Assembly: GCF_017876675.1 (NCBI RefSeq)
Contig: NZ_JAGIOI010000001.1
Location: 4,278,001 to 4,342,000, forward strand
Source of the DNA: Arthrobacter stackebrandtii
GTDB lineage: Bacteria; Actinomycetota; Actinomycetes; Actinomycetales; Micrococcaceae
DNA: 64,000 bases
Direction: 5' to 3'
In this document: positions 5,244 through 59,243 of the stretch, one piece after another
Numbering within the stretch: the first letter of the stretch is position 1
Layout: each line of letters starts with the position of its first letter
Translations under genes and position numbers: made by a program
Notes under the pieces: generated by a model
Database searches by the model: none
Told to the model about the DNA's origin: nothing
What the model saw: only the letters and a program-made list of their open reading frames with translations

Positions 5244-5350
5244 GGTTAGGGGAAACCGCGGCACAGTGATGCGGCGTTGGGGAAAACCGCGGAACAACTG
5301 ATGCCGCGTTGGGGAAAACAGGGACTTATCTGATGCGGGATCGGGGATGG
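5244..5350 (+). repeat. 32-bp intergenic tandem repeat, about 3.3 copies
   Basis: Two full 32-bp units (5267-5298 and 5299-5330) begin TGATGCSGCGTTGGGGAAAA. A partial copy precedes them (5244-5266) and another follows (5331-5350), reaching the glsA stop. The same unit recurs at 59192-59243 and, inverted, beside the IS110 element. It lies between the convergent VOC and glsA genes. Confidence 0.75.
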
Positions 5351-48994: not shown

Positions 48995-49307
48995 CACGAC
49001 TCCGTTTCTCTTCGGTCAAAACCGGGAGGGGAAATCTTATCCCCCGTGGCAATGCTGATAATCGAACAAACTGCTTTGGTGCGTTCTTGCTGTGGCCAGG
49101 ACCGCCGCCCGCGTCTTTGTGGGCTGCCTCTTGAACCAGATCCCCCTCCGCGCCACGCCGTGCCAGGCCTGGCTCCGGGGAAGGTGAGCCAGGAATGGCC
49201 TTGCGGGGCGGCTGGAGATCTCATCCAAGATCGCCGTCCGTACCTTGGAAAGCCACTTGGCTGCGTCTTTCCGTTTCCTGCTGGTGGTGCAAGTGGTGGA
49301 CTATTTG
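48995..49307 (-). promoter_or_regulatory. rsmH leader with mraW-RNA-like hairpin
   Basis: Between mraZ and rsmH lie about 310 bp without a gene. On the minus strand an 8-bp stem (49186-49193 with 49168-49175) presents a 10-nt loop containing CUUCCCC. As I recall, this loop is the hallmark of the actinobacterial mraW RNA motif found in leaders of this same gene. A second small hairpin (about 49027-49045) with a GGGG/CCCC stem lies just before the start region. Covariance has not been tested. Confidence 0.55.
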
Positions 49308-57648: not shown

Positions 57649-57660
57649 AACGCCGCATCT
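57649..57660 (-). repeat. Inverted copy of the intergenic repeat core at the left IS110 flank
   Basis: AACGCCGCATCT is the complement of the 32-bp unit core (TGATGCGGCGTT), but ends in CT where intact units read CA. This change is the probable left junction of the IS110 element. Confidence 0.5.
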
Positions 57661-57940
57661 CTAATAGTTGTTGGCAGGCCTGGTGCCCGCTGGCAGGATT
57701 GATGCAGGGCCGCTGCAGTGTGACTCACGCCGCATCTGGCCTGGTGTTCTCACCAGTGCCTTTGAAGTGACTTGTCCGCTGTGGCGGTCCGGCATCGGCC
57801 CGGCCTCTTGTCATGGCTTGATAAAAGGTTGGCCGAACCCTTGGGAACGTGCCTCGTTAGAGATTTGCCTGACAAGAACCCTATTCCAGGCCGATGCCGT
57901 CCGCACGGTCATCTACACACGGGAATGGAGGATCACCGTC
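57661..57940 (+). ncRNA. Candidate bridge RNA of the IS110 element
   Basis: The 280-nt region before the transposase is gene-free and rich in short dyads: CTGGTG-TTCT-CACCAG (57741-57756), GGTT-GGCC-GAACC and GCCTG...CAGGC. It contains ACGCCGCATCT (57727-57737), identical over 11 nt to the left junction (57650-57660), placed directly 5' of a hairpin as a left target guide would be. I could not identify a convincing right guide or donor loop by eye. Confidence 0.45.
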
Positions 57941-58993
57941 ATGACTATCGTTGCAGAAAAGTTTGCCTACGTCATCGGTGTTGACACCCATGCTAGGACC
58001 CACACCTATGCCATCACCGCCGCAAGAACCGGGGCGTGTCTGGGATGTGAGGTGTTCCCCGTTACCGCCGCCGGCATCAAGCGCGCGATCGGCTGGATCC
58101 GACGCAACACCACCGGTGCCGTCCTGGCCGCGGTGGAGGGAACCCGCTCCTACGGGGCCTCCCTGACCCGGGCCCTGACCGCGGAGAACATGCCCGTGGT
58201 GGAGGCGAAACCGCCGTGGAAGAAGGCCCGCGGCGGGGCCGGGAAGACCGATGCCATCGACGCCATGGCGGCCGCAACAGGCATCCTGGGCACCGATACC
58301 GGCCGGCTGCTGTTTCCCCGCATCGAGGGCACCAGGGCCGCGGTGAGCGTGCTGCTGGCCGGCAGGCGCCGCCTGGAGGGCCAGACCACCGCCAACCGCA
58401 ACGCCCTGAACGCCCTGGTGCGCGAAATCGATCTCGGCCTTGACACCCGCGAAGCCCTGACCGACAAGACGGTCGCCGAGATCGGCTCGTGGCGGCCGCG
58501 CCCCAGCGACACCGTGGAGCAGCAGACCGGGCGGGAGGAAGCCTCCCACCTCGCCCGGGAGATCACCGCCGCGGCCGTGCGGATCAAGGCGAACGAGGCC
58601 CGGCTGGGCCGGCTGTGTCAGGAACTCGCCCCGGGCCTGCAGGACCAGCCCGGGCTCGGGCCCGTGACCGTGACCGTCGGGATCATCCTGGCCGCCTACT
58701 CCCACCACGGCAGGGTCCGCGACGAGGCCGCGTTCGCCTCCCTCGCCGGGGTCTCACCCCTGCAGGCCTCCTCCGGGAACACCACCCGGCACCGCCTGAA
58801 CCGCACCGGGGACAGGCAGCTGAACATGGCCCTGGACGTCGTCGCCAGAACCCGCATGCGCTGCAACCAGAAAACCAGGGACTTCGTCGAACGCCGCACC
58901 AAGGAAGGCCTCAGCTACCGCGAGATCAAACGAGTCCTCAAGCGCTACATAGCACGCGACATCTTCCGCCAACTCGAGAAGATATTCGCTTGA
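57941..58993 (+). CDS. IS110-family transposase (recombinase)
   Basis: The 350-residue protein has the N-terminal RuvC-like DEDD domain, with Asp15 (GVDTHARTH), Glu66 (AAVEGTRS), Asp104 and Asp107 (KTDAIDA). The C-terminal Transposase_20 domain has the Ser-containing segment AGVSPLQASSGN (Ser277/Ser278) and RHRLNRTGDRQLN. All expected catalytic residues are present and the frame is unbroken, so it is probably active. The ATG at 57941 follows TGGAGGATCACCGTC. It lies between the kinase gene and aroG. Confidence 0.95.
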   Translation: MTIVAEKFAYVIGVDTHARTHTYAITAARTGACLGCEVFPVTAAGIKRAIGWIRRNTTGAVLAAVEGTRSYGASLTRALTAENMPVVEAKPPWKKARGGAGKTDAIDAMAAATGILGTDTGRLLFPRIEGTRAAVSVLLAGRRRLEGQTTANRNALNALVREIDLGLDTREALTDKTVAEIGSWRPRPSDTVEQQTGREEASHLAREITAAAVRIKANEARLGRLCQELAPGLQDQPGLGPVTVTVGIILAAYSHHGRVRDEAAFASLAGVSPLQASSGNTTRHRLNRTGDRQLNMALDVVARTRMRCNQKTRDFVERRTKEGLSYREIKRVLKRYIARDIFRQLEKIFA

Positions 58994-59013
58994 CAACCAA
59001 CATAAAAGGGTCA

Positions 59014-59045
59014 CATAATCTCCCCTTTAGCCGGACGCGGCATCA
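59014..59045 (-). repeat. Inverted copy of the 32-bp intergenic repeat at the IS110 right flank
   Basis: Read on the minus strand it begins TGATGCCGCGT and matches the unit at 5299-5330 in about 22 of 32 positions. It lies 20 bp after the transposase stop. Confidence 0.5.
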
Positions 59046-59191
59046 ATACCCCACCGAGAGCTGCCGGGAAGACGCTTGGGGCTTGTCCGTCACGCACCAT
59101 TTACTGGAGCTTGCAGCCGGCCAGTTGCGCAGTTGTATTTGCGGCAGGGATCCCCGCTTTGCTGCCACGTCCACGAACCCAGGGCAACAAG

Positions 59192-59243
59192 TGATGCCGC
59201 GTTCAGGAAAAACGGCACTTATCTGATGCCGCGTCGGGAGTGG
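59192..59243 (+). repeat. 32-bp intergenic repeat, one full and one partial copy
   Basis: The full unit 59192-59223 (TGATGCCGCGTTCAGGAAAA then ACGGCACTTATC) differs from the unit at 5299-5330 at only about five positions; a partial copy follows. Confidence 0.75.

Follow-up and report, generated by a model that had tools for sequence, protein, structure and literature searches.

A predicted bridge RNA and its dispersed-repeat target in an IS110-group element of Arthrobacter stackebrandtii

The element, its ends and the repeat that holds it

The window analysed here is a stretch of 64,000 nucleotides of Arthrobacter stackebrandtii DNA, along which all positions are counted, and it carries an insertion sequence with one recombinase gene and a long non-coding left end, set into a tandem repeat. 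The main features of the insertion are as follows.

57660 to 59012, forward strand: IS110-group insertion sequence, 1353 bp with one copy of the TC core counted (that of the right end), delimited by same-genus homologues and the empty site in relative L201
57658 to 57659, forward strand: core TC, left copy, from the L201 empty site and the right junction
59011 to 59012, forward strand: core TC, right copy, from the right junction and the L201 empty site
57650 to 57659, forward strand: left target (LT) with core, ACGCCGCA-TC, the end of a 32-bp repeat unit, from the L201 empty site and the repeat family
59013 to 59019, forward strand: right target (RT) ACATAAT, where the repeat unit resumes, from the junction and the L201 empty site
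57927 to 57931, forward strand: GGAGG, probable ribosome-binding site of the transposase, from sequence
57941 to 58993, forward strand: IS110 recombinase of 350 amino acids, DEDD plus Transposase_20, from domain searches and alignments

Similarity to same-genus homologues is confined to about 57658 to 59012-59013, and in L201 the same locus is found without the element. The window flanks, once joined, align to this empty site free of gaps (...GCATC/ACATAA... against ...GCATC/AGATAA...) and the 32-bp repeat period is intact across the joint when window and L201 are compared. In that alignment the site is scarless and, as characterises IS110 elements, without target duplication beyond the short core. 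A previous, sequence-only reading of this DNA had asked for an empty site to define both ends; L201 supplies both, and with TC standing at either end and the empty site free of gaps the element is therefore 57660-59012. Its non-coding left end is of 281 bp (57660-57940) and its right end of 19 bp (58994-59012), which is the arrangement of the IS110 group; in the IS1111 group the arrangement is the reverse, with a short left and a long right non-coding end.

The recombinase is above the gathering scores of both Pfam PF01548 and PF02371 and reaches 131.2 bits with NCBIfam NF033542 ("IS110 family RNA-guided transposase"), just under the cut-off of 140. Residues D15, E66, D104, D107 and S278 are invariant in 14 relatives and align by profile with D11, E60, D102, D105 and S241 of IS621; phmmer with the single sequence against the PDB found nothing, and IS621 was reached only by profile. 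A 6-bp duplication (GTGACCGTGACC, 58665-58682) leads to a two-residue insertion (VTVT) that is absent from the more than 50 other recombinases read, in which the length of the segment is constant, and the window copy may be inactive because this insertion sits in a conserved segment of the recombinase. Since a protein search of the genome contigs gave one relative only (46%), relatives were taken from whole-genome searches; plasmid records held partial matches only, of about 65-70%.

The string ACGCCGCATCT has exact copies at 57650-57660 and 57727-57737, as the sequence-only reading had claimed, and at no other place in the 64-kb window; a third copy with one mismatch, reading ACGCCGCATCA, is at 5267-5277 on the minus strand and is a copy of the dispersed repeat. 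As a copy of the target the match holds for ten of its eleven bases (ACGCCGCATC) and fails for the eleventh: the element begins with T57660, and T57737 is a conserved base of the RNA scaffold. Because the 10-mer is found at 85 places in the genome, where a reversed control has 12, the 11-nt match by itself does no more than suggest a guide; a repeat variant, ACGCGGCATC, occurs 58 times against 14 for its reversed control. Successive units of the dispersed repeat (consensus ACGCSGCATCAGATAAG...) follow at a period of 32 bp and lie at mostly apparently intergenic positions. Besides 57650-57659 the tandem repeat is also found at 59013-59055 and 59190-59235, and the genome has about 140 half-sites.

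Fold and target guides of the predicted RNA

The left non-coding end is predicted to encode a structured RNA, whose parts up to the donor loop are these.

57672 to 57884, forward strand: predicted bridge RNA, ends approximate, from the consensus and single-sequence folds
57701 to 57724, forward strand: 5' strand of the target-loop basal stem, partner at about 57774-57796, 12 of 22 pairs changed on both sides
57727 to 57736, forward strand: left target guide (LTG), ACGCCGCA and then UC pairing with the core, from covariation at bases 57728-57734
57738 to 57760, forward strand: target-loop apical stem, which includes the hairpin 57741-57756, from the consensus fold
57764 to 57770, forward strand: right target guide (RTG), GAAGU and then GA pairing with the core, from covariation
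57771 to 57772, forward strand: conserved CU after the RTG, where IS621 has its target-loop handshake guide
57807 to 57876, forward strand: donor-binding loop, a stem (57807-57817 with 57867-57876) and internal loop, 6 of 10 stem pairs changed on both sides

Nine aligned relatives give a consensus fold of 55 pairs, made up of a long stem with the target loop and a second hairpin with the donor loop, and the guides fall in its internal loops. The main evidence for this fold is alignment A1, which is MAFFT-based, of nine sequences and made without structural fitting, and it is preferred over alignment A2 since A2 was fitted to the model. In A1 both-sided changes are seen in 26 of the 55 pairs and 93% of cells pair; none of 500 shuffles reached the covariation observed, and slid registers were likewise far off. 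The window sequence alone folds 3.9 SD better than its shuffles (z -3.9). The covariance model R1, which spans 57676-57884, has matches in 119 of 398 family genomes and 19 of 32 genera, and across 102 aligned R1 matches, in an alignment fitted to the model, 47 of the 55 pairs carry both-sided changes. The hairpin reported beside the 11-nt match is present as CTGGTG-TTCT-CACCAG at 57741-57756, and folding, the check suggested for the match, puts it in an internal loop and in no consensus helix. Over the element no Rfam family reached its gathering score and a relaxed threshold gave nothing relevant; a Pseudomon-groES hit on the opposite strand, at 27 bits against 50, was dismissed as chance. 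Elsewhere in the window an mraW RNA motif (RF01746) at 49118-49237 on the minus strand is just above its gathering score.

About 65 natural relatives were compared and 100 further element loci were fetched, the loops of each being set against its own flanks. Subgroup A has the left end TCTAAT and core TC, subgroup B the left end TGTGAG and a core that is mostly AC, and subgroups A and B (L100-L199, L041, L056) have one common RNA scaffold. In 36 subgroup-A elements with distinct guides LTG positions 2-8 agree with the element's own left flank at 67% identity, against 30% when permuted (z 12.2; as relatives share ancestry this and the other z-scores overstate independence and are descriptive, with one element used per guide), and a scan along the whole RNA has its sole peak at 57728 (z 12.6, the next best being 3.3). 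The RTG bases 57764-57768, reverse complemented, are identical to the right flank at 77% of positions in 22 elements and at 33% after permutation (z 9.7 in the block test and 10.2 in the scan), again as the sole peak along the RNA, and these statistics cover motif-located elements only because the subgroup-A right ends were found by motif, with two mismatches at most and a slight preference for TC. The peaks occur in the strand senses predicted by the bridge-RNA model, LTG and RTG being on opposite strands, and in a base-by-base matrix for subgroup A the top eight of 3649 tests are seven LTG positions and base 57864 of the donor loop. In the window the reverse complement of the RTG, TCACTTC, matches 5 of 7 bases of the right flank TCACATA, and some relatives (L106, L058, L150) show poor matches of guide to flank. 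The CU at 57771-57772 could, by analogy, pair with the donor GG before the core (C:G, U:G). Subgroup B, in which exact ends were settled for part of the copies, has the same guide-flank diagonal, with the first core base covarying and the second mostly C, and from these sequences the first base of the core appears to have changed between the sister subgroups.

The proposal that the 11-nt copy holds the left target guide of an IS110 bridge RNA is upheld by guide-flank covariation and by position in an internal loop. There is next to no probability left for the idea that the repeat arose by chance, or as a duplicated fragment of the abundant ACGCCGCATC, and has no guide role; with so many genomic copies a stray one inside the element is conceivable, but relatives in unrelated sites match their own flank from the same RNA position, which a stray copy cannot do, and so covariation refutes it. 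A different account makes the structure a cis-regulatory leader of the transposase mRNA, acting as an attenuator or in translational control, with the protein recognising target DNA. It draws on the structured RNA being just upstream of the transposase, where co-transcription is expected, yet the guides differ between elements whose scaffold and recombinase are much alike. A leader also has no need of left and right guides that match opposite strands, or of a donor loop that matches both ends of its element, and we hold this account to be very improbable. A regulatory role of the structured RNA in addition to guiding is possible.

Donor loop, core frame and putative split promoter

The reading as a bridge RNA with guides extends to a donor loop and to the joined ends of a predicted circle.

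57821 to 57828, forward strand: left donor guide (LDG), AUAAAAGG, which matches ATAAAAGGGTC of the right end, from end comparison
57855 to 57863, forward strand: right donor guide (RDG), CGUUAGA and then GA pairing with the core, complementary to left-end TC-TCTAA
57864, forward strand: donor-loop handshake base U, the complement of A57657, the left-target base that precedes the core, from covariation
57660 to 57665, forward strand: TCTAAT of the left end, putative -10 half of a split promoter and also right-donor (RD) sequence, from sequence and conserved spacing
58990 to 58995, forward strand: TTGACA, putative -35 hexamer of the split promoter, 17 nt from the right end, from sequence and conserved spacing
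Predicted circle junction, ends joined: GGGTC/TCTAATAG

Two strands of the donor loop match the element's ends, and they covary in part. At the fourth LDG base, which is A or G, 16 of 17 elements have the variant that their right end carries (Fisher p 0.0006). The LDG is without core pairing, in that ATAAAAGG matches and the next bases, UUG, mismatch GTC. The RDG, CGUUAGAGA, is complementary to left-end TCTCTAA when the two are set against each other. The sequence-only reading had found no right guide or donor loop by eye; both are present, as RTG 57764-57770 and as LDG 57821-57828 with RDG 57855-57863. Base 57864 is complementary to the target base before the core at 82% against 34% permuted, tied highest of the 3649 tests in subgroup A, and a handshake guide at the corresponding donor-loop position is described for IS621 (PMC11208158).

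The core had been read as CT, and the junctions with L201 place the exchanged dinucleotide at TC instead (57658-57659, equal to 59011-59012). In support of a CT core as in IS621, mismatched to target CA, the donor circle GGGTCTCTAATAG holds both TC and CT and the guide reads CUG at the core point; against it the right junction is TC/A and the empty-site relative GCATC/AGATAA, the left targets of 32 of 39 subgroup-A elements end in TC, and covariation links the base before TC with handshake base 57864, which comes straight after the core-pairing GA. From this covariation the core frame is, by analogy with IS621, therefore TC (PMC11208158), and the CT frame, which we regard as unlikely, was rejected on junction sequences and covariation. 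That the repeat has CA and the junction CT at this point follows from the core being TC and T57660 being owned by the element.

In 28 of 30 elements the distance from a -35-like hexamer to the right end is exactly 17 nt. The arrangement TTGACA-17-TCTAAT is complete only in the predicted circle and would function there as a promoter, to judge from its sequence; promoters built across joined ends are documented for IS621 and ISEc21 (PMC11208160, PMC11187229). In the integrated copy (58990-59019) the right target gives CATAAT 18 nt after TTGACA, with 11 of 12 consensus bases, and together the two may form a promoter that points out into the downstream flank.

Proposed life cycle and known relatives

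With its ends, core, guide-target covariation, fold, split promoter and repeat target as found here, 57660-59012 is almost certainly an IS110-group insertion sequence with a 5' non-coding bridge RNA, following a life cycle of which we infer the transcription, RNA binding and catalysis. By homology with IS621 the recombinase would excise the element as a circle, and the joined ends would create the promoter TTGACA-17-TCTAAT from which the bridge RNA would be transcribed. The donor loop would then pair with the circle junction through LDG and RDG, and strand exchange by the recombinase would take place at the common TC core. The guide would address the 32-bp dispersed intergenic repeat in the host genome, and so insertions would land outside genes. 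Targeting a repeat in this way, the strategy of IS621 on REP elements, would give insertion sites that are abundant and harmless to genes.

Like IS621 (Durrant 2024, PMC11208160; Hiraizumi 2024, PMC11208158), the element has a predicted bridge RNA in its left non-coding end, LTG and RTG matching opposite strands, LDG and RDG in a donor loop, a putative handshake guide, a putative promoter across the predicted circle junction, a DEDD plus serine recombinase and a REP-like repeat target. It differs from IS621 in having a TC and not a CT core, and in its recombinase, whose divergence is too great for one sequence to find the IS621 structure; the IS621 right guide is of four bases including the core, whereas most relatives of the window element have five bases beyond the core. 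A CT (NT) core with an almost invariant T as second base belongs to IS621 and its close orthologues (PMC11208160, PMC11208158) and is not taken here as defining for all bridge RNAs, and the dinucleotide shared here, TC, does not fit it. ISEc21 with its seekRNA (Siddiquee 2024, PMC11187229) is likewise of IS110 type, with a non-coding region upstream of tnp, one guide match per strand, no target duplication and natural re-direction among relatives, and is unlike the window element in target and sequence and in that seekRNA is described as a short processed form.

Natural guide-target covariation and re-targeting were already described in 2024 (PMC11208160, PMC11208158, PMC11187229). All the findings fit the published bridge RNA or seekRNA mechanism, and so the element is a good further example of a mechanism that is not new; a TC or NC core, against CT or NT in IS621, may be new relative to the published description of IS621. 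The chances seem evenly balanced that the element belongs to a large actinobacterial IS110 clade, reaching over the 19 genera with R1 matches, that has an NC core, its second base C nearly fixed, instead of NT. If that is true, the choice of core would set NC-core recombinases apart from IS621 as an orthogonal system. The elements supply pairs of recombinase and RNA with a different core for testing. The relatives amount to a natural re-targeting experiment, in which a near-identical scaffold carries dozens of guides, each matching its own insertion site, and one donor-loop base tracks the target in line with the IS621 handshake model; this supports the bridge-RNA mechanism in actinobacteria. 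Another IS110-family element in ISfinder, ISAar29, is presumably from Arthrobacter, judging by its name. A bridge RNA has been predicted for it along comparable lines (PMC11208160, Extended Data Fig. 10).

Other copies of the repeat in the same genome hold remnants of a left end (L002/L059) and of a right end (L003), and the lineage has therefore landed in the repeat at least three times. L003 is identical to the window element at 80 of 81 bases, and the right guide of L059, TCAGATG, matches the repeat's TCAGATA; judged by sequence, the remnants come from the window element or a close one. A second IS110-group element is present in the same genome in six copies (L004-L009), and its guide TTGGTACAAC matches its flank ACTGGTACAAC.
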